From Pyrobaculum ferrireducens (GTDB lineage Archaea; Thermoproteota; Thermoprotei; Thermoproteales; Thermoproteaceae), in the NCBI RefSeq assembly GCF_000234805.1, contig NC_016645.1, positions 1,464,391 through 1,528,390 on the forward strand: a stretch of DNA of 64,000 nt. The letters are read 5' to 3'. Numbering within the stretch: the first letter of the stretch is position 1; each line of letters starts with the position of its first letter. The notes beneath the pieces are model-generated. The model had not been told where the DNA came from. It saw nothing but the letters and a program-made list of their open reading frames with translations, and did no database searches. Both the position numbers and the translations under genes were made by a program. This document shows, one piece after another, positions 4,518 through 24,094 of this stretch.

Positions 4518-4799
4518 CTATTTCCAGTAGTTCTTGTTGCTGAGTATCTTCTTCAACTCCTCTGGGGTGGTTGCGCAACCGTTTTTGCTTAGCCAGTCGC
4601 TTAGTATGCGTAGCATCAGCTCTGCGTTGTGGCGCCCCATGGCCTTCTCCAAGACTTCATACAGACGCCAGGGCTCCTCAGTTATGTAGTAGTCCAGCGG
4701 CTTGCCGTAGGTCGCCAAGATTCGGTAGTGCGCCATGACTCTCCATGAGAAGTTCACCTCCGCGTAGAACCTCAGCAGTAGCTCCTTAGTGACACACAT
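4518..4799 (-). CDS. Small helical partner protein, copy 1 of 3
   Basis: A roughly 93-aa all-helical protein of unknown function. It aligns with two other proteins in this window (13815-14081 and 15181-15519). Shared features are a HYR.L...GK.L motif, a Tyr-x-VLE..MG/ALG segment, HNAEL(M/F)L, a WL...GC motif and a closing EEL.KIL. Its ATG (4799) shares one base with the TGA of the ATPase gene upstream (TGATG), indicating translational coupling; a GTG at 4802 is the alternative start. The repeated pairing with RecA/KaiC-like ATPases suggests it binds or regulates them, which is inference from context. Confidence 0.7.
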   Translation of the reverse strand: MCVTKELLLRFYAEVNFSWRVMAHYRILATYGKPLDYYITEEPWRLYEVLEKAMGRHNAELMLRILSDWLSKNGCATTPEELKKILSNKNYWK

Positions 4800-6013
4800 C
4801 ACATCCTTGTGTATACCACCCTCCTCCTCTGCTCGTCAATTTTGAACTGGAATCTAATAGGCACCGGGCTCTCCGGCGTGTGCGCCTCCAGCTCCCCGTG
4901 TCTGAACTTAAATACGTAATCTACCAGCGAGCCCAGGTACAGGCTCGCGGAGTCCCAGGCGTCGTAAGAGTTGAACACAAGGACCGTGGTGGTGGGGTAG
5001 TTAACTAGGGATTGGTACAGCCTCGCCGCCTCAACCAGCAACTCGGGTCCGGTGGAGGAAACCACTTGCTCGTACTGATCGGCGAAGTGCACGTCGAATC
5101 TGCCGCGGTTAACCATCTCGGCGCTCTTGAACCACCACGTCAAACTCTTGTGCTCCACAACGGGGTGGTAGAACCACTCGATATTAGGAACCTGCCACCT
5201 CACGCCCAGGCTCTCGGCGAACTTGGTAAAAGTGGGAGCCACCTTGTGGTGGTGGTAGAGCACCCTCGACCCCCGCCTGGCCAGCTCAGCCGCCGTGAGC
5301 ACCATCAGCTTGCTGGCCAGCCCGTCGGGTGGGCCCACCACGGCCACCAAGGTCCCCCTCCACACGCCTCCGCCTATTGCCTCGTCGATCTCCGGCGCAC
5401 CAGTTGTCAACCTGTCGCTGGGCAATTCCTTCGACTTTTCAATAGGCGTAATCACAAACGGGCCGGACTCCGTAATTACGAAGGGTAGCTTGGCGTATTT
5501 GAGAGGCTTGCCTCTGGTCTTCAGTAGCTTGACATATCGTATGGAGGCGCCCGATTCATATACTTGGTGCTCCACCTCTATAATAACATCCGCAATGTAA
5601 TCTGCTGGAGTCACCTCCACACCCTCTTTTATAAAGATCACAGGCGACTCCCGGGAGATGCCGTGGTAAAACACTGCGTGGACAAGCTCCCTCTCCCCTT
5701 CTCCAGCTATGGCGTTCACGCCGTCGACCACAACGACGTCAGGTCTCAACTGGGCAACTTTCTCAACTATGTACTCCACCACCGCCTTCTCCCCCGTTGT
5801 CACCATGTCGAAGATGTAGGCCGGCGGCGTAGTCCCCACGGAGGCCAGATACCTCCTCAATCTCTCCTCTGTCTCGTAGAAAGTGAACCACGTAGCCTTC
5901 CTAAAGCGAGACACTGCCTTAGCCACTAGTAAAGTCTTCCCAGCCCCCGGCAGACCCTTCACCACTATTACACCTTCACTAAACAGCTCTTCGAGGTTAC
6001 ACCCTGCCGACAC
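4799..6013 (-). CDS. RecA/KaiC-like ATPase, two-domain, copy A
   Basis: About 404 aa with an N-terminal P-loop KGLPGAGKTLL (Walker A, residues ~19-29) and a Walker B-like RPDVVVVDGVNAI about 75 residues later, as in RAD55/KaiC/ArlH-type ATPases. A second, similar half begins near residue 220, but its P-loop is degenerate (VGPPDGLASK, lacking the GKT/S), so probably only the first site hydrolyses ATP. GTG at 6013 is preferred over TTG at 6028, because a TATATAAAAT box lies about 25 nt upstream. It is coupled to the small helical gene at 4518. A paralogue is at 14093-15184. Targets are unknown; signalling or surface-structure control is inferred. Confidence 0.7.
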   Translation of the reverse strand: MSAGCNLEELFSEGVIVVKGLPGAGKTLLVAKAVSRFRKATWFTFYETEERLRRYLASVGTTPPAYIFDMVTTGEKAVVEYIVEKVAQLRPDVVVVDGVNAIAGEGERELVHAVFYHGISRESPVIFIKEGVEVTPADYIADVIIEVEHQVYESGASIRYVKLLKTRGKPLKYAKLPFVITESGPFVITPIEKSKELPSDRLTTGAPEIDEAIGGGVWRGTLVAVVGPPDGLASKLMVLTAAELARRGSRVLYHHHKVAPTFTKFAESLGVRWQVPNIEWFYHPVVEHKSLTWWFKSAEMVNRGRFDVHFADQYEQVVSSTGPELLVEAARLYQSLVNYPTTTVLVFNSYDAWDSASLYLGSLVDYVFKFRHGELEAHTPESPVPIRFQFKIDEQRRRVVYTRM

Positions 6014-6070
6014 GTAGAAGTATAACAAACTATTTTATATATTTTCTGGTGTATACGTCGTAATGCACTG

Positions 6071-13695: not shown

Positions 13696-13814
13696 GCGAC
13701 CAAGCCTCTAGGCACCACCTCCACGCCGGGTTAGACCCACCCCCGCCGGCATGCGGCTATGAAACCGGCATATACACGGTATATAGGTATATATAGTGGG
13801 TCCATTCAGAGGCT

Positions 13815-14081
13815 GTGTGCCTCGACAAAGAGAAATTAGTAGCCGCGGTTGAGAACCTCAGCCCACCTCTCAAGGCGCTGATAAACATAGCGACGTTGAG
13901 AATAGTGGGCAGACCCCTTGAGCAGTTGCTCGAAACAACGCCCCGCGAAGCGCTCAAGGCATTTCTCCAATTCGCGGGGCCCCACAACTACCAGCTACTA
14001 CTCCGAATATTCCAGCAACAATTAGCCAAGCAGAAATGCTACGTAACACTGGAGGAGCTAGACAGATTTATACAGAGATGA
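13815..14081 (+). CDS. Small helical partner protein, copy 3 of 3
   Basis: An 88-aa helical protein that aligns with those at 4518-4799 and 15181-15519. It shares the central G(R/K)PLEQLLE...A segment, GPHNYQLLLR in place of HNAEL(M/F)L, a conserved Cys near the end (KQKCYVTLEEL) and the same overall length. It starts at GTG 13815, downstream of TATATA repeats. Unlike its relatives it is transcribed alone, on the strand opposite the ATPase gene, and ends 11 bp from that gene's 3' end. It is the most divergent copy. Function unknown. Confidence 0.65.
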   Translation: MCLDKEKLVAAVENLSPPLKALINIATLRIVGRPLEQLLETTPREALKAFLQFAGPHNYQLLLRIFQQQLAKQKCYVTLEELDRFIQR

Positions 14082-14092
14082 AAAAGAGGGAG

Positions 14093-15184
14093 TTAGCAGG
14101 GTATATCCACCCCCACCTTGCCGCCCGGCGCCCGAACTGCTTGTACTACGCCTTTATCTACTCTAATCACGACGTCGAAGAACATGTCGAATTTCTCAAG
14201 GTCGCGTAGAGACACCACTATGGCAGGTCCCATTTGTGCAATTTTCCGCAACACCTTCAACACCTTGTATAGGCTCTCGTCGCCATACATGGCTCTCACC
14301 AAGTCAAGCCCTCGGATAAACACGGCGTCGTACCCCTCCCTCGCCAATTTATATAGCGTAACTAGAAGCTCTTCAAAGTTCATCTCCATCTTCAAGGCAG
14401 GTACTCCCCTAGTCTCGGCGTATATTAACCCACCGGTAGCCATGTCTATGTACCTAACCTTTCTTCCCCTCTCCATTAAAGCCCTTGCTGTATTGATCAT
14501 GAACCAGTTCTTCCCCGCCCCCATAGGCCCCACCACGCTGTGAAGCAAACCCTTGTAGAGCCCCCCAGCGGCGGCATCTAGACACCACCCAGTCTCCACC
14601 ACCTCCACCGCCGAAGTTGGAGCAGTACTCTCCTCAAATAATATTACTCCAGAGCCCTCGGCGATTACGAACGGCACCGAATAACCCGCCTTCCCACCCC
14701 TAACCTTCTTCACTAATATCTCTCTAATAGCGCCGTAGGGCTTTAGGTCATATACCAACTCAATGACGTTGTCGGCTATGTACGCCACCTTCTCCGCCAC
14801 CTCTCTCTCTGCGGTTAAAAACACGTCTATACCCGCCTGCTTAATGACTCTATACACCACGTTGTGGATAACATCAACCCCACCCCCAAGACTCAGAAAT
14901 TCTGTAATAGAGTCGATAACCAAAGCCCCGGGCCTCTCCCGGATCACCGAGTCCACCAACGTGTTAAAGAAGGCCCCTGCCTCTGCTAGAGGAGCCTCCC
15001 AAAACACCAGCCTATCGCCAAAGTCGTAGCCAAGCGCCGCCATGTTTTTCCTAAAAGCTACTTCATCCTCAAACGCAGAGACCCAAAACACCTTGTCGTA
15101 ATTCCCATGGACATACCAAGCGGTTAGCGTCGTCTTCCCTGATCCAGGCGGCCCGTAAACCAGGGTAACGCCGCGCAACTTCAT
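14093..15184 (-). CDS. RecA/KaiC-like ATPase, two-domain, copy B
   Basis: A 363-aa paralogue of the ATPase at 4799-6013. The first P-loop is YGPPGSGKTTL (residues ~10-20), and a Walker B-like GALVIDSITEFL follows. The second half has VVGPMGAGKNWF, a P-loop with Asn for Thr/Ser, so it may bind but not cleave ATP. Start ATG 15184 overlaps the TGA of the small helical gene (ATGA); the longer frame to 15247 would overlap that gene by 67 nt. Dual-domain RecA-like proteins of this kind include KaiC and the archaellum regulator ArlH. Its position 0.4 kb from a pilus ATPase operon makes motor or assembly control a reasonable guess. Confidence 0.72.
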   Translation of the reverse strand: MKLRGVTLVYGPPGSGKTTLTAWYVHGNYDKVFWVSAFEDEVAFRKNMAALGYDFGDRLVFWEAPLAEAGAFFNTLVDSVIRERPGALVIDSITEFLSLGGGVDVIHNVVYRVIKQAGIDVFLTAEREVAEKVAYIADNVIELVYDLKPYGAIREILVKKVRGGKAGYSVPFVIAEGSGVILFEESTAPTSAVEVVETGWCLDAAAGGLYKGLLHSVVGPMGAGKNWFMINTARALMERGRKVRYIDMATGGLIYAETRGVPALKMEMNFEELLVTLYKLAREGYDAVFIRGLDLVRAMYGDESLYKVLKVLRKIAQMGPAIVVSLRDLEKFDMFFDVVIRVDKGVVQAVRAPGGKVGVDIPC

Positions 15185-15519
15185 AGCCTCCCCAAAATCT
15201 TCCCTATTTCCTCTATAGACTTTACACAGCCCTGCCTCTCGAGCCATGTCTTGAACATGTAGAGAAAAAGCTCGGCGTTGTGTTGACCCAGGGCTCCGCT
15301 CAGCACTTGGTACACCGACGACGGATTCTCCAGAATTATCTGCTCAAATGACTTGCCAAATCTAGACAACACACGGTAGTGGATAAAAGTCCTAAGCGAG
15401 GAGTTGAGGGAGGTGTAGAATTTTACAAAACCACGGAGAAGTTCAACATCTTCACATTTAGGATGCTCAAAGCGCTCAGATCGCGCCTCTTTCTTGATGC
15501 TTTCCCCTATTTGAGACAC
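15181..15519 (-). CDS. Small helical partner protein, copy 2 of 3
   Basis: A 112-aa protein whose last ~85 residues align with the products at 4518-4799 and 13815-14081: IHYRVLSRFGKSFEQI, then YQVLSGALGQHNAELFL, a WLERQGC motif and IGKIL at the end. An added N-terminal stretch of about 25 residues is charged. GTG 15519 lies about 25 nt after an ATATAT box. It is translationally coupled to the ATPase downstream (ATGA). In copy A of the module the ATPase comes first and the small gene second, so the order is swapped while the pairing is kept. Confidence 0.7.
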   Translation of the reverse strand: MSQIGESIKKEARSERFEHPKCEDVELLRGFVKFYTSLNSSLRTFIHYRVLSRFGKSFEQIILENPSSVYQVLSGALGQHNAELFLYMFKTWLERQGCVKSIEEIGKILGRL

Positions 15520-15587
15520 AAACTACAAAAAAGGACCTTGATATATGTTTTACTGTGTAGTAACGGAAAAAGATTCAAAACCTATTT

Positions 15588-16367
15588 TTAAATATTTGCC
15601 ATTGAGTCAAAAATAACGTAGAAAATAAAGCCGACTATGGGGATGTAGATAAGCGCCATGAACAACATCAACGTCAGGGGGTCAACGTTCATTGGGCCGG
15701 CCTGCAGGGCGCCCAGGGGGCTGAAGGCAAGCGCCACTATATAGACAAGGAGGGGGAGCAACATGACCACAACCACAAAGATTTCAAACATGAGGGAGAG
15801 GGACCTCACCAGCGACTGCGCCTTCACCTGCTTAGCCCTAAGCATCCAGTCGAGCCTAGCCATCAGCACAAGATCCACGCGTTGCGTAATCCGGGACGAC
15901 TTAGTAATCAGCTCCACTGTCTCCCTGTACGAGGGGCTCGGCACCCTCTCCGCGCTGTGGGCCAGAGCCTCCTCGGGGCTGGAGCCCATCACCACCATCT
16001 CCCTAGCCGCCAGCGCCAGCTCCCTTGCGATGAACCGGTCCTCCTCCACCTCGGCCAGCCTCGTCACCACGCGCCCAAGCGGCAGGCCAGCCGCGAGGAG
16101 GGGGAGCATCACGCCCAGCGTATAGACAAAATTGTTTTCAAAATGGCTACGCCTCGCCGTGATTAAGTACACGGGGTAGAGCAAAACCCCGGCAAACGTC
16201 AGCAAAGCCGCCACTGCGCCGATGGCCACGGCGGCGACGGGGCCGAACAGAAACAGCGCCACGATCCCCGCCGCGGCTCCCGCGGCGATCGGCGCCACCA
16301 CTAGTACAAAGAGGTAGCGGCGGTAGGAGAAGGCCAAGCCGCTTTGGCGGTACAGCTCGTAGATCAT
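15588..16367 (-). CDS. Type IV pilus platform protein (TadC/GspF-like), second half
   Basis: A 259-aa polytopic protein. N-terminal membrane segments (residues ~25-70) lead to a cytoplasmic helical domain with the T2SSF-type pattern LPLLAAGLPLGRVVTRLAEVEED, and further membrane segments follow at the C terminus. Such proteins form the inner-membrane platform of type IV pili and archaella. Its ATG overlaps the stop of the pilus ATPase gene (ATGA). Together with the related protein at 17815-18600 it appears to supply, as two polypeptides, the two T2SSF domains that are often fused in PilC/TadC homologues. Confidence 0.75.
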   Translation of the reverse strand: MIYELYRQSGLAFSYRRYLFVLVVAPIAAGAAAGIVALFLFGPVAAVAIGAVAALLTFAGVLLYPVYLITARRSHFENNFVYTLGVMLPLLAAGLPLGRVVTRLAEVEEDRFIARELALAAREMVVMGSSPEEALAHSAERVPSPSYRETVELITKSSRITQRVDLVLMARLDWMLRAKQVKAQSLVRSLSLMFEIFVVVVMLLPLLVYIVALAFSPLGALQAGPMNVDPLTLMLFMALIYIPIVGFIFYVIFDSMANI

Positions 16368-17842
16368 ACGGCGCCCCGCCTAACCTCCTCAAGCGTGCGG
16401 TCGGGGTCTATGTGGTATTTTGTGAATATTTTGGCGACGACGTACGGCGTGGAGAAGCCGTGTTTCACCATTTCGGCTATCAACGCCTTCCTCCTCTCCA
16501 ACTCTCTTTTCAAATAATCCAGAGAGACAAACCTAGTTCTTGAAATAGTCTCGAGGTGGCGGCTCTCCTCCACCTGTTCCAGCCTGTCGGCCTCGGGGTT
16601 CCACCTGTATACGTAGTGTAGCCTGGGGCGCCCTCCGCGCGTCACACCCATGTTCTCCGCGATCTCCACCACCCGCCTGGTGATCTGGCCCCCCACCTTC
16701 ACCCTCAAAATCCTCACGAAGACGTGTGCGAGGCCCACCAACATGGGGGGTACGTGCATAGGCCTGGTGAGGAGCCTCCTCACCGCGTCTTCTATAGTCT
16801 CTGCGTGTATAGTCGTGGCGCCGGAGTGGCCCGAGCCGAAGGCCTGGAACAGTACGTAGGCCTCCTCCCCCCTCACCTCGCCAACCACCACGTAGTCGGG
16901 TCGGGACCTCATGGCTATGGCCAGGAGGTCAAACGCGGAGACGTCCCTCACCCCCTCGTGCCTCCCCGGCCTAGTCAAGAGGGCCTGCCAGTGGTCGTGA
17001 ATTATGTTGATCTCCCTGGTGTCCTCTATGGTTAAGATCTTGGCGTCCGGCCTCACCAGGTACAGCAGGGCGTTGAGGAGGGTGGTCTTCCCCGCCCCCG
17101 TGGGCCCAACGATGACGATATTCCTCCCGTAGTCAAGCATAAGCCAGAGGTAGGCCACGGCGTCGCTGGAGATGGTGCCCATCTTCACCATATCCACCAG
17201 GGTGATGGGCACCACGAAGTACTTCCTCACCACGAAGCTCGGCCCCCTAGGCGAAACTGGCGGAATTGCCAGTTCCACGCGGAACCCCTCCGGCAACATG
17301 CCCTCAAGCACGGGGTCGGCGTAGGACACAGGCCTCCCCACCAAGGCGGAGAACCTTTGTACGTAGCCGTCCAGCTCCTCCGCCGTGAGGACTATGTCCG
17401 TCTTCAGCGACTCCCAGCGGCTGTGCCAGATGTAGACGTGCCCCGGGCCGTCGACGTGTATATCCTCGATAAAGGGATCCCTAACCAGGGGGTCAAGCCT
17501 CCCGTAGCCGAGCAGATCCCGGCGCAGGAAGTACATCAGCTTCCCCCACCTCCTCTCGTCTATCCTTATCTTAAACTCCGACGCCGCCCGCCTCGCCAGC
17601 TCCTCCAGATACTCGGCCCTCCTCTCCCGCGCAAGCTTCAACACGCCGTCCCTCACCTCGCCCACGTTCTGCACAGCCCGCTTCAACGCCGCCAGCTGGC
17701 GGGCCTCCTCCTCGCTCAGAGGCGGCTCCACCGGGCGGTACCTCCTAAACCCCTCCCCATCTACGTAAACCACTGCCTGTACATACTCCGACACCTCGTA
17801 CTGATCCAAGATGTTTAGAACCCCAGCCACATCGGCGCCCAT
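16364..17842 (-). CDS. Type IV pilus/TadA-type secretion ATPase
   Basis: A 492-aa GspE/TadA/ArlI-family hexameric ATPase. Visible motifs are Walker A VGPTGAGKTTLLNALL, the Asp box ILTIEDTREINI, Walker B YVVVGEVRGEEAYVL, and the His box ATTIHAETIEDAVRR. The N-terminal domain (~150 residues) precedes the DIHVDGPGHVYIWH segment characteristic of the family. It powers pilin insertion and extraction at the cytoplasmic face. It is flanked by two platform genes with overlaps of 28 and 4 nt, so all three form an operon transcribed 18600 to 15588. Confidence 0.9.
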   Translation of the reverse strand: MGADVAGVLNILDQYEVSEYVQAVVYVDGEGFRRYRPVEPPLSEEEARQLAALKRAVQNVGEVRDGVLKLARERRAEYLEELARRAASEFKIRIDERRWGKLMYFLRRDLLGYGRLDPLVRDPFIEDIHVDGPGHVYIWHSRWESLKTDIVLTAEELDGYVQRFSALVGRPVSYADPVLEGMLPEGFRVELAIPPVSPRGPSFVVRKYFVVPITLVDMVKMGTISSDAVAYLWLMLDYGRNIVIVGPTGAGKTTLLNALLYLVRPDAKILTIEDTREINIIHDHWQALLTRPGRHEGVRDVSAFDLLAIAMRSRPDYVVVGEVRGEEAYVLFQAFGSGHSGATTIHAETIEDAVRRLLTRPMHVPPMLVGLAHVFVRILRVKVGGQITRRVVEIAENMGVTRGGRPRLHYVYRWNPEADRLEQVEESRHLETISRTRFVSLDYLKRELERRKALIAEMVKHGFSTPYVVAKIFTKYHIDPDRTLEEVRRGAV

Positions 17843-18600
17843 AGCCCCACCCCTACCATAATCACCCCAGCCCCCCCGTGGACCATCCCCGCCCTAGCGC
17901 TCCCGCTGACCAACCTGCCCACCACAGCCCCACCCACGACGCTGTTGGCAATGCCAGATATATAAAGCACGCGGATAGCCAAATCTCGGCTAACCACAGC
18001 CGGCTGTATGCCCTGTATCGGGCCCGCCGAGGCGGCGGAGAACTTCGCCAGCTCGGGCAGGAGGAAGTATACAAGGACGTCGGCCAGCGCGGCGAACACC
18101 AGCAACACCGCGTAGAACAGCGCCACGTAGGGCCTCAGCTGGGAGAGAAGAGAGGAGCGGAACTCCACCACCGTGGCGAAGCTCCGCGCCGCCACATCCA
18201 GCACCTCCGGGAGCCTAGCCCCCGACCTCACCCCCTCCGTGATGATAAGCGCAAACCGGCGGAAGTTAGCCGAGGGGAGCTCCCCCGCCATCCTCCAGAG
18301 GGCCTCCTCCACTGTCAGCCCCCCAACCTCCGCCAGCGACAGCACCCTCCTCAAGACATCGGCCATGGGCCTAACCCCCAGCTGCGCCGCCACCTCCAAG
18401 GCGCTTCTCATGTCCAGCCCCGCCGCCGCCGCGTCTGAAAAAACTCTCAAAACCTGGGGAATCTGCCCTTCCAGCCTATACACAAACACAGACCGCCTCC
18501 ACGCCCCGTAGCCCACCGCGATCAGCACAGCCCCCAGCCCCACACCTAGCCAAAAAGCCCGCACATAGAGAAACTCCAGCACGGAAACTAAAGCGATCAT
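17815..18600 (-). CDS. Type IV pilus platform protein (TadC/GspF-like), first half
   Basis: A 261-aa membrane protein with a hydrophobic N terminus (residues ~5-35), a central T2SSF-like helical domain (DAAAAGLDMRSALEVAAQLG and AARSFATVVEFRSSLLSQL), and C-terminal membrane helices. It is the first gene of the pilus operon and overlaps the ATPase gene by 28 nt. It is related in pattern to the 15588-16367 product, supporting a split or two-subunit platform. No promoter element was pinned down in the A/T-rich 257 bp upstream. Confidence 0.75.
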   Translation of the reverse strand: MIALVSVLEFLYVRAFWLGVGLGAVLIAVGYGAWRRSVFVYRLEGQIPQVLRVFSDAAAAGLDMRSALEVAAQLGVRPMADVLRRVLSLAEVGGLTVEEALWRMAGELPSANFRRFALIITEGVRSGARLPEVLDVAARSFATVVEFRSSLLSQLRPYVALFYAVLLVFAALADVLVYFLLPELAKFSAASAGPIQGIQPAVVSRDLAIRVLYISGIANSVVGGAVVGRLVSGSARAGMVHGGAGVIMVGVGLWAPMWLGF

Positions 18601-18857: not shown

Positions 18858-19304
18858 TTATGAAGCTGTAACTGTCGTTGCTATTTCTGTACCCCGTGCT
18901 GTTACTAGCTTCACAGTGTAATCATAGCCCGCATTAAGTGAGCAACCCAATATAGCCTTAACCATCAATATATCACCAGTTTTATTGTAATTATTCGCTG
19001 TCGAGAGATCTTTAGGTCCGCATATTATTGTATTTGTTCCTGCTTGTAATATATATAAAGTTGACCATTTTACAGGTAAATTTGTTAGATTCCTTATATA
19101 TAGTGTAACCTCCGCATTCGTCGCTTTTAGACTTGTTGCCTCTATCTTAAGTTTCTCGGCGGCGGCCATCTGCTCTGCTTGGGATGTGGCTTTTGTGACG
19201 TATCCGGCGAACCAGAGGTATACCAGCACCGCTCCTATTACCGCCACCACTATTAGCAACACCGCGGCGACTATTGGTTCGAGACCTTTGGTTTTGGTTT
19301 TCAT
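18858..19304 (-). CDS. Type IV pilin with class III signal peptide
   Basis: A 148-aa protein. A short basic leader MKTKTKG is followed by LEPIVAAVLLIVVAVIGAVLV, the classic prepilin-peptidase site (after Gly) and the hydrophobic assembly helix. The remaining ~105 residues are a Thr/Asn-rich beta domain with two Cys (CGPKD and GCSLNAG) that may pair. Codon use in the head domain is unusually A/T-rich for the window (many AAT, ATA, ACT codons), as often seen in fast-evolving surface proteins. It would be polymerised by the ATPase and platform encoded at 15588-18600. Confidence 0.82.
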   Translation of the reverse strand: MKTKTKGLEPIVAAVLLIVVAVIGAVLVYLWFAGYVTKATSQAEQMAAAEKLKIEATSLKATNAEVTLYIRNLTNLPVKWSTLYILQAGTNTIICGPKDLSTANNYNKTGDILMVKAILGCSLNAGYDYTVKLVTARGTEIATTVTAS

Positions 19305-19440
19305 GTGAGCCCTGTACCTCCAGTTTAAAATATTCTGTGGTGCGCCTTCCGTTGTATACTGGTTATATATGCATTAGACAAAAACCTTGCGTTCTGCGGG
19401 GTACACCATAAAAAATTTCTACAGATGTCCACTTGTCTAC

Positions 19441-19848
19441 ATGCGTGGGGTTTCGGAAGTCGTGGTGAATGTCCTCCTTCTCGCGATCACCGTGGCGGCG
19501 TCGACTCTACTCTTTTCGATATTTTTTAATGTGTATACCCAGCAACAGAGCCGCTTGGTTGTTGAGGGGGCTGGCGACGTGTGTGTTGCCCGGGTTTTTG
19601 ACGTGGGGAATGTGAGCGGCGTCGCTAGATTTTACATATACAACAGGGGCAACGTGGCCTGTATATTTGACAAAGCGTACATATACTCTGGGAGCGCCGT
19701 GGCGGGGCCGTGGTCTGTGTCGAGTTGCCGGGTTGCGCCTCAGTCGGTGTCTCTCTGCGACAGCTCTGCTCCTTACCGCGTCGGCGTTGTATACCGCCTG
19801 ACGGGGCCGCGGGGCGAGGTGGCCGAGGTGTCGTGGCCTGGGCCATGA
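19441..19848 (+). CDS. Pilin-like secreted protein (minor pilin)
   Basis: A 135-aa protein. From ATG 19441 it has a short MRG leader followed by VSEVVVNVLLLAITVAAST, a class III-type signal and hydrophobic helix, then a beta-rich domain with several Cys (DVCVARV, NVACIFD, VSSCRV, VSLCDS) that could form two disulfides. The frame extends upstream to 19387, but the leader favours 19441. Its TGA overlaps the start of the giant surface protein (ATGA), so this minor pilin probably works with it. Confidence 0.72.
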   Translation: MRGVSEVVVNVLLLAITVAASTLLFSIFFNVYTQQQSRLVVEGAGDVCVARVFDVGNVSGVARFYIYNRGNVACIFDKAYIYSGSAVAGPWSVSSCRVAPQSVSLCDSSAPYRVGVVYRLTGPRGEVAEVSWPGP

Positions 19849-22800
19849 GGGGCCTCTCCACCGTGGCGGGGTTTGTCGTCTTCGTCCTAGCCTTGATAAT
19901 ACTGTTCGCCTCGGTGTTCTTCTTCTACAACATGTTGCAGACGGCGGCGCAGAAGGGGGTTGAGCGGGTGCAGAACAGCGCCGTGAGAGACTTCGAGGCG
20001 TCCTTCACCTACGGGCCGGGTGGGTGCGGCGTGGGGGGCGGCTGGATTTACTACGTGGTTCAAAACGCCACGGGCCACGTGCTGGGGAACGGCACCTCGC
20101 CGAGGTGCCCGCCGGCCGTCTCTGGGATCTACACCTACCGGGTGGTTAGAAGCGACGGCGCCGTGGGGACGGCTAGGGTGTACATCGGCCCGCCGCTGGT
20201 CGCCGGAATCTCTACCGCGGCGTACTTGGGGCCGGGGGGCACCTTCACAATACCTATAGTCATTAGGCTGGCTAGCAACCGGTCTGCCTACATCCCCATC
20301 TCAAACCTGTCGGTTTCCCTCTCCGCGCCCCCCGGCGTGTCTTGTACCCCCCCGCCTGGCCAGTCATACCTCACCGTGCCGCCCAGCGGGGTGCTTGAGG
20401 TTAACCTAGGCGCGGCCAACTGTAATGTGACCGACTACACCTACCTCGCCACCTCCGCGAGGCTTGTCAACGCCACGGTGACGCTTTCCTACGGCGGCGC
20501 CACGCTGTCGACTACGAGGCTGGTGGTCGGCTCCGTGGCAGATAGGTGGGGACAGGCGTCGTTTACATACAGCGGCGGCGTCTGCAACATAGCCGCTCCC
20601 TCGGCTCCCCTGTTCTACGCAGTTTTTAAAAACGGCGCGGTTTGGAGCGGCGGGAAATACGACAGATCGGTGCCATGCCCCGCCGGCGAGGGGATCTACG
20701 AATATAGGGCGCTGGGGGGCGACGGAGTTATATACAGCGTGCCTGTGGTTGTTAAGGCGAACTCCATCAGGGCGTGGGCGGAGTCGAATAGAACAGTGGC
20801 CTACGTCAACGCCACGGGGCAGACGGTGGCCTTCGACCTCTATCTCCGCTTCTCTAATCCAAACCCCGGCTACGTCCCGGTGAACTACAGCTTCTCCCTC
20901 GTCTACAACACAGCGCTTCTCAGCTGTACGCAAGTCGGTACGCCGGACGGGGACCCCCGCTCGCTGGTGTTGCTCCCGGGCGAGACAAGGGCTCTGTACG
21001 CCGGGACCTATACTTGCACCGTGAATGGCGAGTTCAACGAGACTAACATCGCCGTGTCCATCACCGCCGCATACACCGGCGGCGGGCAGACCGTGGTGTT
21101 GTACAGCGGCGTGGTGGGCACGGCCACCACATTCGCCGCCCCCAACTGGGTCGTCTTTACCATCGTCTGGGGCAATGGCACCTCGTACAGCGTCGCGGGG
21201 TACGGCGCCGTCCAGCTCCAGTACAGAAAGAGCCTATTCACAGTGAGGTGGCGCCCCGCGGCGCCTCCGCCGCCTGTCTGTCCCCCAGTCTACGTCTATC
21301 TCAATAAGAGTCTGTCGCCGCTTGTATGGGCTCTGAGCGCGGTCTCTCGGTTCAACGTCACCACGCTCTTTATGAAGGTGATGCCGGGCTGGCCAGAGCT
21401 TTACGACGTGGCTGTGTTGTCTACGCCCTCCGGCGGCTGGTCGGCCTCTCTCAACAAGACTGGGGAAGCTGGTCAAGGCGATTACGGGATCTACCTCGGC
21501 GGCCGCCTCCAGCTGTCTCCTAGCCGGGAAAGCGGCTCCCCGGCGCCTCTCCCCGCGGCGCTGGCTTGGTACATGAAGACCTCCTCCACGTGGTCGGCGA
21601 CTGCCAACGCCACGGTTTTCGGCGCGGCAAAGTGCACGTACCCCCTGCTGAACTTCACAGCCCTGCCAATGGCCAAGCTCCTCGGCTGGTCATTTACCTG
21701 CGGCGTCTCTCAGATAGTCGACGACTACTCTAGTTACGGCTCGGTGAGCGGTTGCACGACGTGGGGTTTTGAGAAGAGCTTGCCATACAACCGGACGGTG
21801 GTAAGCCAAGCCTCTGTATATCTAGATACTAAAAGGAACTACGACGGATCTTACTCTCTAAAGCTAGATATTACTAATGATGGTGGCTACGCGGTGTTTT
21901 ACATAGACGTGGCTAGGTGGCTTGGCTACGTGCCGTCCACCAGCTCCTTCTCGATATATGTAAACCCCGACAAAAAACCTGATAACACCCACAGCTACCA
22001 GGTCAGCTTTTTTATCGATGTAAATAACGACGGCGTCCCAGACATAGAGCTGATCTACTACGCCAGAGGGGGTAGCTACATGGCTGTATCCACATACCTG
22101 GGATACAACACCAAGACTCTGATAGGCGGTAGGTTCACCGTCAAGGCCGATAAGTGGAGGCAGTTCTCGCTTGGCACGATTTACTCAACCGGTAGGATTG
22201 TGGGAGTTGCCTTGGTTTCCTTCGGCAAGGCAGAAGCCGATGTGTGGTGGGACGAGATGACTATATGCAAGAGTAGCTACTTTACAAATGCCCCGTATGT
22301 CTCGGTCATAGCCGATGGCTGGAGCTCCACCGGAGTCTCAATTAGTACACAGTATTCACCTACTTCTCCCCCATCTCTTCAGCTTGAGGTTGATGCCTCA
22401 AACTCCACAGGAAGTCCCGTGGATGACTACGGCGTGGCGGCGCTTATCTACGACGTGGCTGGCTGGGTTGGAAGCGTCTTGCCAGTTGCGGGCACCTCTA
22501 TTTCAGTTAAGGTCTTGTATCAAAGAGATGTTCAAGATGTTAGGAATAACGTGTACTACATCTCTCTAGGTATTGATTTAAACGGTGATGGGGTTGTTGA
22601 TAGAGAAGTTGTATACTACACGCCAGATACGTCCGGGGGCGCCGGCGTCGTGGTCTCTATGTATTTTAGAGACGCGGTGGGCAACCCGCTTATTGTCTGC
22701 ACCGTAGACACAGCTGGCAACTGCGCCGTGACCAACTCTACTCTCTTCGCCGCGTATAGAGTGTACAACTTCAACACCACCACAATCACCCTAGACGGGC

Positions 22801-23345
22801 CAGGAGCATTAGTGAAAATAGCCCTAGCCGCGGTAGACGCCAGCGGCTACCAAGACGGCACCGTAGACGACTTCTGGGTGTTTTGGGACGACTTGACTGT
22901 GGCTTACAGCGCGTGTCCTCCGCCGTCCGGCTGGTATTCAAGGGGGTACGTCTGGCAGTCGTACGGCTACCTGCTGGCGACGGCGGGGGGCGTGGGCTAC
23001 GCGGCGCTTGTCCCAAACGCCCTTACCTACGTGGCTAACTTCACTGGCGTTGGTACATACGCCGTGTTTGACTCGGCTCTAAACGTGGTCTTCGGCGTGT
23101 ATAGGGGGGCCTCTGGCTTCAGCGCGGTGTGCGGCTCTGCGCTGTACGCACTTGGCGCTTTTCCAGCCGCCAGATACGTGGAGCTGAGGCCGCTGGGCGG
23201 CCTCGGCGACGTCGTGATAAGAGACGCCAACGGCAACATACTGGCGAGATACGGCTGTAGCTACACCACAACACCCACATACATAGGCGTAAAGACAGGA
23301 GCCGGAGAGGCGATAAAACTATACACACTAGAGGCGTGGGGGTGA
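19845..23345 (+). CDS. Giant pilin-anchored surface protein with tandem domains
   Basis: A 1166-aa protein. ATG 19845 gives MRGLSTVAGFVVFVLALI, a pilin-like leader and membrane helix; the open frame before it overlaps the pilin gene and is not used. Outside the membrane there are beta-sandwich-like repeats to about residue 560. Two related domains follow (~626-805 and ~806-1024), each with a Ca-binding-like D-x-N-x-D-G motif (DVNNDGVPD, DLNGDGVVD) and a W(D/W)D(E/D)(M/L)T closing strand. The end resembles a DUF2341-type domain. It has many N-glycosylation sequons. A lectin- or adhesin-like role is inferred. The tandem-domain DNA (about 21.7-22.7 kb) is richer in A/T than the flanks, suggesting later acquisition. 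Confidence 0.75.
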   Translation: MRGLSTVAGFVVFVLALIILFASVFFFYNMLQTAAQKGVERVQNSAVRDFEASFTYGPGGCGVGGGWIYYVVQNATGHVLGNGTSPRCPPAVSGIYTYRVVRSDGAVGTARVYIGPPLVAGISTAAYLGPGGTFTIPIVIRLASNRSAYIPISNLSVSLSAPPGVSCTPPPGQSYLTVPPSGVLEVNLGAANCNVTDYTYLATSARLVNATVTLSYGGATLSTTRLVVGSVADRWGQASFTYSGGVCNIAAPSAPLFYAVFKNGAVWSGGKYDRSVPCPAGEGIYEYRALGGDGVIYSVPVVVKANSIRAWAESNRTVAYVNATGQTVAFDLYLRFSNPNPGYVPVNYSFSLVYNTALLSCTQVGTPDGDPRSLVLLPGETRALYAGTYTCTVNGEFNETNIAVSITAAYTGGGQTVVLYSGVVGTATTFAAPNWVVFTIVWGNGTSYSVAGYGAVQLQYRKSLFTVRWRPAAPPPPVCPPVYVYLNKSLSPLVWALSAVSRFNVTTLFMKVMPGWPELYDVAVLSTPSGGWSASLNKTGEAGQGDYGIYLGGRLQLSPSRESGSPAPLPAALAWYMKTSSTWSATANATVFGAAKCTYPLLNFTALPMAKLLGWSFTCGVSQIVDDYSSYGSVSGCTTWGFEKSLPYNRTVVSQASVYLDTKRNYDGSYSLKLDITNDGGYAVFYIDVARWLGYVPSTSSFSIYVNPDKKPDNTHSYQVSFFIDVNNDGVPDIELIYYARGGSYMAVSTYLGYNTKTLIGGRFTVKADKWRQFSLGTIYSTGRIVGVALVSFGKAEADVWWDEMTICKSSYFTNAPYVSVIADGWSSTGVSISTQYSPTSPPSLQLEVDASNSTGSPVDDYGVAALIYDVAGWVGSVLPVAGTSISVKVLYQRDVQDVRNNVYYISLGIDLNGDGVVDREVVYYTPDTSGGAGVVVSMYFRDAVGNPLIVCTVDTAGNCAVTNSTLFAAYRVYNFNTTTITLDGPGALVKIALAAVDASGYQDGTVDDFWVFWDDLTVAYSACPPPSGWYSRGYVWQSYGYLLATAGGVGYAALVPNALTYVANFTGVGTYAVFDSALNVVFGVYRGASGFSAVCGSALYALGAFPAARYVELRPLGGLGDVVIRDANGNILARYGCSYTTTPTYIGVKTGAGEAIKLYTLEAWG

Positions 23346-23560: not shown

Positions 23561-23647
23561 GGCCTCGGGGGCGGATTCCCTCCCCTGCCTGGGGGGACAT
23601 GTCCGCCCCCCCACCACTTAGTTTTAAGTTGGGTGTATATATTCTTT

Positions 23648-24094
23648 GTGATTGTATTTGTCGACGAGAGTGGGGTGAAGTCTTTCTGTAACTGCGTGGC
23701 GGTTGGGGCTGTGGCTTTCGAGGCGAGGTACGGGGTGCCGTATATGGAGCTGGGGAGGCACGTCCTTGAGCGTATCCGCCGGATGGCGAGGGTGGGGGGC
23801 GAGGTTAAGTACAGCGACGTCCGGCGTAGGGCCGACGTGGAGGCTGTTGTGAGGCTTATCTCCGAGGTGGCCGAGGTGAGGTTTAGGGTGGTGCACTTCA
23901 CGTCGCATGGCGACGTCGAGGAGGCTGTGGCAGAGCTGTCGAGGGGCGCCGTGCTGGTGGTGCTCGACAACCAGCTTCTGCCCCGGAGGCCGAGGATCGG
24001 GGCCCGGGTTATCGAGAGGGATTCTAGGCGGGTGCCGGGGCTCCAGCTGGCTGACGTCGTGGCTGGCTACGCGAGGTCGCGGGAGTGTCGGTAA
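23648..24094 (+). CDS. DUF3800-family protein
   Basis: A 148-aa protein. It opens with VIVFVDESG and ends with LQLADVVAGYARS, the two signature motifs of DUF3800 proteins, thought to have an RNase H-like fold with acidic active-site residues and often found near mobile or defence genes. A further Asp lies in the central VVLDNQ. GTG 23648 is preferred because TTTTAAG lies about 25 nt before it; GTG at 23633 is in frame. It begins the accessory stretch that continues to 28.3 kb. Biochemical activity is not established. Confidence 0.72.
   Translation: MIVFVDESGVKSFCNCVAVGAVAFEARYGVPYMELGRHVLERIRRMARVGGEVKYSDVRRRADVEAVVRLISEVAEVRFRVVHFTSHGDVEEAVAELSRGAVLVVLDNQLLPRRPRIGARVIERDSRRVPGLQLADVVAGYARSRECR

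Follow-up and report, generated by a model that had tools for sequence, protein, structure and literature searches.

Introduction

Archaea possess many KaiC-like ATPases, few of which have known targets. Among the pili of Thermoproteales, those of "subclade 4B" comprise one ATPase, two TadC-like genes and PilA-type pilins, and the text on this subclade in Makarova et al. (2016; PMC4858521) describes a gene pair beside them, labelled there arCOG01174 (KaiC-like ATPase) and arCOG03758 (alpha-helical protein). The same text proposes that the pair regulates the pilus, with the helical protein in place of KaiB. The association of pair and pilus is already known in the form of this prediction, and our literature search found no experimental test of the predicted regulation. 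Here we analyzed such a pair, ATPase copy B and small helical protein B, in a 64,000-nucleotide stretch of the Pyrobaculum ferrireducens genome (contig NC_016645.1, positions 1,464,391 to 1,528,390 of the forward strand; hereafter the window, whose numbering is used throughout). The genome is 2.47 Mb in one contig, within which the window lies.

Other KaiC-like systems are comparable with this locus. ArlH, which is KaiC-like, stimulates the archaellum motor ATPase ArlI (PMC8978795), and here, as at the ArlH (FlaH)-ArlI locus, an ATPase of the KaiC-like superfamily is encoded by a VirB11/TadA-type motor ATPase and TadC/ArlJ-like platform genes. CirA of Haloferax volcanii, a KaiC-like protein encoded near surface-filament genes, affects archaellation, and hence filament production, and acts on archaellum gene expression (PMC13286277); it differs from copy B in acting on the archaellum, and no small helical partner is described for it in the available text of that report. 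As in the cyanobacterial KaiC-KaiB system, copy B has a two-domain RecA fold, an ATP-binding first domain and a small partner encoded alongside. Unlike KaiC, its domain 2 is degenerate and shows no visible pair of phosphorylation sites in a hand alignment, and unlike the thioredoxin-fold KaiB, the partner is predicted to be all-helical. In Pyrococcus horikoshii, the KaiC homologue PH0833 autophosphorylates (PMC5520375). Its locus number is next to that of PH0832 (2P9X), a small helical protein; from these numbers, the two genes presumably adjoin.

The P. ferrireducens locus resembles subclade 4B in lineage, in its ATPase with two TadC-like genes, in its adjoining pilin or pilins and in its KaiC-like/small helical pair. 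To that description we add a convergent third small paralogue at this locus and, in relatives, a flipped gene order, decay of the pair together with the pilus and the replacement of copy B by an A-clade ATPase, the last three of which are unmentioned in the subclade 4B text (PMC4858521). We further add a probable promoter of the module's own and a link to the solved pilus structure 8FK7. On balance, we think it somewhat probable that copy B, as a signalling ATPase of the KaiC type, specifically serves the adjoining type IV pilus, with the small helical protein as its direct partner.

Results

The pair follows a pilus operon

The pilin, TadC-like protein 1, TadA-type ATPase, TadC-like protein 2, small protein B and ATPase copy B are encoded on the minus strand in this order of transcription. 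The genes of the operon and the adjoining module are as follows.

18858 to 19304, minus strand: major type IV pilin (archaellin/type IV pilin N-terminus model TIGR02537, 21.2 bits against a cut-off of 20; match to 8FK7, E 6.7e-41)
17815 to 18600, minus strand: TadC-like platform protein 1 (PF00482, 7e-11)
16364 to 17842, minus strand: TadA/T2SSE-type pilus assembly ATPase (PF00437, 6.9e-31)
15588 to 16367, minus strand: TadC-like platform protein 2 (PF00482, 8.9e-13)
15181 to 15519, minus strand: small helical protein B, 112 amino acids (all-helical AlphaFold2 model; homology to small proteins A and C)
14093 to 15184, minus strand: KaiC-like two-domain ATPase (copy B), 363 amino acids (PF06745, 5.8e-15; AlphaFold2, Foldseek and motifs)
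13815 to 14081, plus strand: small helical protein C, 88 amino acids, a divergent paralogue convergent with copy B (homology)

The initial annotation placed copy B 0.4 kb from the pilus genes, with all genes on the same strand. The gap (15184 to 15588) is as stated, but it is occupied by small protein B; the direct neighbour is TadC-like protein 2, and the TadA-type ATPase lies 1.2 kb away. The common strand holds for the pilus genes, small protein B and copy B but not for the gene at 13815 to 14081, which is convergent on the plus strand. The genes of small protein B and copy B overlap by 4 nucleotides (ATGA). For copy B, the start of the longest open reading frame (15247) was dropped because aligned starts in orthologues make 15184 likelier.

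The T2SSE ATPase lies between two T2SSF proteins, giving the ATPase and two TadC-like genes characteristic of subclade 4B. Subclade 4B also has two PilA-family pilins; here the 18858 to 19304 protein exceeded the TIGR02537 cut-off, and the 19387 to 19848 protein scored under that of Pilin_N. The orthologous pilin of the relative G028 matches 8FK7 at all of 139/139 residues, and the 8FK7 pilus was observed on P. calidifontis cells (PMC12954529). Given this identity, the homologous operon, with its pair, is that of a pilus which cells actually produce. Further, comparison with the closest relative indicated purifying selection on copy B and on all three small genes: the ratio of nonsynonymous (dN) to synonymous (dS) substitution rates was 0.15 for copy B and 0.15-0.17 for the small proteins A, B and C (0.17 for B and 0.15 for C), on few substitutions in each case. 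Because of these ratios, the genes look real.

The pair is conserved beside the pilus in Thermoproteaceae

We compared 19 Thermoproteaceae genomes, here numbered from G000 (P. ferrireducens), and found orthologues of the pilus ATPase, 63-100% identical, in 14 of them. Thirteen of the pilus loci were readable past TadC-like protein 2; that of G033 was left out because it ends too early. The pair or its decayed remains stood right after TadC-like protein 2 in 11 of the 13 readable loci (G000, G035, G028, G029, G030, G032, G039, G041, G042, G040 and G027; the small gene of G039 is partly masked by N, with both ends of the family pattern visible). Because it recurs in this way, the adjacency is far beyond chance, and the conserved pilus neighbourhood that the initial annotation had set as its own check was found in other genomes. 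Further, G028 and the Thermoproteus-type genomes lack gene neighbours that the module has in several species of Pyrobaculum, which argues that the adjacency is not mere general synteny.

The order within the pair varies, being small-KaiC in most genomes and KaiC-small in G029, G030 and G032. In the ATPase tree, clade A (98/98) stood apart from clade B, which was monophyletic (100/99) and whose members were all pilus-adjacent with one exception in a draft genome. In G040, the place after TadC-like protein 2 is taken by a clade-A ATPase with a small gene.

Joint decay of copy B and the pilus in two Pyrobaculum genomes

P. oguniense (G031) no longer has the pilus operon; its copy B gene ends at residue 164, and the N-terminus of its small protein B is gone. 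The first ~180 residues of tadA are missing in G027, where the copy B gene is a fragment and small proteins B and C are still open. Copy A, the clade-A ATPase of the window, is intact in both genomes.

A DUF3800 gene that lies past the pilus cluster in the window (23633 to 24094) directly adjoins the truncated copy B gene in P. oguniense (L047:10109-10576), marking a deletion or rearrangement there. An open reading frame just upstream of the truncated pilus ATPase of G027 (L048:5710-6893) appears by eye to resemble part of an anthranilate-synthase-type gene.

Copy B is KaiC-like with a degenerate second domain

Copy B is a member of the KaiC family, with 55.7 bits for PF06745 (cut-off 26.6). 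Its AlphaFold2 model has two RecA-type domains (mean predicted local distance difference test score [pLDDT] 87), and KaiC was its best match among solved structures in Foldseek (E ~6e-25, template modelling score 0.7-0.8). As judged from the model, copy B is a two-domain KaiC-like protein. The initial annotation was therefore right to place a RecA/KaiC-superfamily ATPase beside the pilus motor, whereas its likening of the protein to ArlH was not borne out: copy B scored 20.6 bits with the ArlH model NF052589 (cut-off 215) and has two domains instead of a single RecA domain. No protein in the 19 genomes exceeded the cut-off of NF052589 (0/19), and the archaellum FlaD/E domain (PF04659) was likewise found in 0/19.

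Domain 1 is intact, with a Walker A motif (GPPGSGKT), an acidic FEDE motif and a Walker B motif (LVIDS) kept in nine orthologues; the FEDE position is the site of the catalytic glutamates in KaiC-type proteins. In contrast, domain 2 lacks the acidic pair in the nine orthologues, has Arg in place of the Walker B Asp in Pyrobaculum and has Asn in place of the Walker A Thr/Ser in P. ferrireducens. The mean pairwise identity of the nine was 65% for domain 1 and 43% for domain 2. There was no Ser/Thr pair in the segment of domain 2 that, by hand alignment, would correspond to the KaiC phosphorylation sites. With the curated KaiC model, copy B scored 43.6 bits against a cut-off of 408. Given its degenerate domain 2, copy B is not a circadian KaiC proper in its catalytic motifs. 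Two cysteines, C201 and C363, are invariant in copy B.

The small proteins form a helical family

Small proteins A, B and C are homologous to one another and belong to a helical family of ~90 residues; the AlphaFold2 model of small protein B is all-helical (pLDDT 88). Most members start with "MC" and have a second cysteine of the "NGC" type, and positions occupied by P, G, HN and L are invariant. Small protein B has a 20-residue N-terminal extension, with Lys-Cys at the usual Met-Cys start, and its start is likely the upstream GTG, which has a TATA box at -27. Small protein C was found in three genomes only (G000, G035 and G027). In the tree of small proteins this paralogue was clearly resolved, and the branching order of the others was not. 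The two conserved cysteines of most small proteins make disulfides possible within or between the small proteins and the ATPase.

No Pfam or NCBIfam family matched the small proteins at usable scores. The Foldseek matches of small protein B were weak, the best being PH0832 (2P9X; probability 0.93, E 0.48), with which there was no sequence match. We know of no link of PH0832/PH0833 to pili. A search of the relatives with PF11505 (DUF3216), which we take to be the family of 2P9X, gave nothing over the cut-off. The published label of the small protein's arCOG is a death-fold domain; in the structural comparison of small protein B, death folds gave pyrin-domain matches only (E > 5, probability < 0.1), which did not confirm the label, and one member of the small family matched NitrOD5 (E 0.0046). 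A DNA-binding role of the small protein was considered and rejected, the HNF1 profile matches not being significant (E > 1).

The pair occurs beyond the pilus and has promoter-like sequences

Among the 19 genomes, a KaiC-like gene lies within 1 kb of 41/67 small-family genes, where ~1% would be expected by chance; the count is biased slightly high because 21 seed members were drawn from such loci. TATA-like boxes precede the module genes as follows.

15541 to 15546, minus strand: TATA-like box at -27 to -22 of the small protein B GTG start (sequence inspection)
13788 to 13796, plus strand: TATA-like box at -27 to -19 of the small protein C GTG start (also in G035 and G027)

A TATA-like box is also present at about -27 before the first module gene in the other genomes inspected, and before the pilin. 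These sequences suggest that the module probably has a leaderless transcript of its own and adjoins the pilus operon without strictly belonging to it. Against the alternative of one operon shared with the pilus genes, the TATA boxes before the module favour its own transcription, although read-through may occur. Because it probably has its own promoter and the same pairing recurs at loci without pilus genes, we regard the small protein and the KaiC-like ATPase as a general signalling pair used beside the pilus and not as a pilus-specific motor part.

P. ferrireducens has a third such pair (G000:C1:236165-238701; L089:6028-8701), accompanied by a divergent further KaiC-like gene and adjoined by MoxR-type AAA and winged-helix genes, without pilus genes. 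In G029, a second, frameshifted KaiC copy of the B type with an intact small gene lies apart from the pilus operon (L039:8700-10069).

Discussion

We lean towards a dedicated pilus regulator because of the two-domain KaiC fold, the conserved domain 1, the linkage to the pilus in 11/13 loci and the joint decay in two genomes. Precedents are ArlH, a KaiC-like protein that stimulates the archaellum motor ATPase (PMC8978795), and the KaiC-like CirA, which affects archaellation in Haloferax (PMC13286277). In such a system, copy B would form a hexameric ring, in which ATP binding and hydrolysis in domain 1 would change its shape. Binding of the small partner would depend on this change, in the way that KaiC governs KaiB. 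The partner would then relay the state, most likely by direct contact between proteins at the TadA/TadC motor, as no DNA-binding domain is recognisable in the module. Where there are several small paralogues, as B and C here, their binding to one ATPase may differ in its effects. In its most specific form, a KaiC-type ring without KaiB or phosphorylation sites would be an ATP-state switch on the pilus motor for which B and C compete, the module staying at the pilus although the ATPase clade or the gene order changes between relatives; we consider this complete picture improbable. One KaiC-like clade is tied by neighbourhood and shared decay to a pilus of solved structure (8FK7), which offers a defined set of filament, motor and partner for testing the proposed control of archaeal pili by KaiC-like proteins.

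Several observations weigh against a dedicated regulator. The copy B gene of WP30 (G032) is frameshifted at the start of domain 2 and the pilus operon there looks intact; the G040 pilus locus has no B copy; a third genus (G043 and G044) has the pilus without the pair. Judging by these four genomes, the pilus seems able to do without copy B. Further, the draft genome G038 (76% complete) has copy B, and the pilus operon was not found in it. The promoter-like sequence and the occurrence of pairs elsewhere without pilus genes weigh against it as well.

The main rival is that the pair regulates the expression of pilin or pilus genes, or a KaiC-like timing or oscillation of them, instead of the motor. 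We judge it unlikely: the module encodes neither a recognisable DNA-binding domain nor a transcription factor, and a phosphorylation clock of the KaiC type is opposed by the missing Ser/Thr pair in domain 2, as far as the hand alignment can tell. In favour of this rival, the third P. ferrireducens pair lies beside a winged-helix gene, expression control is the reading stated in the subclade 4B text of Makarova et al. (2016; PMC4858521), and CirA acts on archaellum gene expression in Haloferax (PMC13286277).

Copy B could instead be the counterpart of ArlH, as a structural cofactor of the motor in direct contact with the TadA ring and needed for pili to assemble. This would fit the shared KaiC-like superfamily, the adjoining motor genes and the stimulation of ArlI by ArlH (PMC8978795). 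The second domain, the score far under the ArlH cut-off, which no family member exceeds, and the pilus loci without an intact copy B (G032, G040, G043 and G044) make this very doubtful. We would give just as little credence to the view that the two merely stand together by an inherited gene order, with no link in function and with the pair serving another pathway. The pair's own promoter-like sequence and the pairs found away from pilus genes speak for this view, but the adjacency is kept across two genera though other neighbours differ, copy B decays with the pilus in two genomes where copy A is retained, and in G040 an A-clade copy occupies the same position. A dedicated regulator remains the reading that we favour.

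Other features of the window and of related loci

The window contains four further genes of relevance to the pilus and the pair.

19387 to 19848, plus strand: second pilin-like gene, divergent (PF07790, 20.1 bits, under the cut-off of 25.2)
19845 to 23345, plus strand: large secreted protein with a hydrophobic N-terminus, candidate adhesin or minor pilin (sequence)
4799 to 6028, minus strand: copy A KaiC-like ATPase, of a separate clade (domain-2 Walker A lost)
4518 to 4802, minus strand: small helical protein A, encoded by the partner gene of copy A (homology to small proteins B and C)

A Pfam search with the 19845 to 23345 protein gave no match. Most pilus loci have a second pilin-like gene close to the pilin. 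In several Pyrobaculum genomes, copies A and B are ~15 kb apart or less (window 4518 to 6028 and 14093 to 15519; L048:17647-19148). Copy A, which has lost the Lys of the domain-2 Walker A motif, survives where copy B decays.

In G043 (G043:C8:79372-81377) and G044 (G044:C119:8503-10508), an ArlH-like protein (~109 bits, cut-off 215) is encoded beside another TadA-type ATPase; this appears to be a divergent archaellum-like locus of the third genus. In the comparison with G035, the pilin (18858 to 19304 against L037:4917-5357) was the fastest-changing gene (dN 0.34, dS 1.27). The dS of its neighbours was ~0.07-0.2, and the pilin looks as if it had been replaced by recombination.

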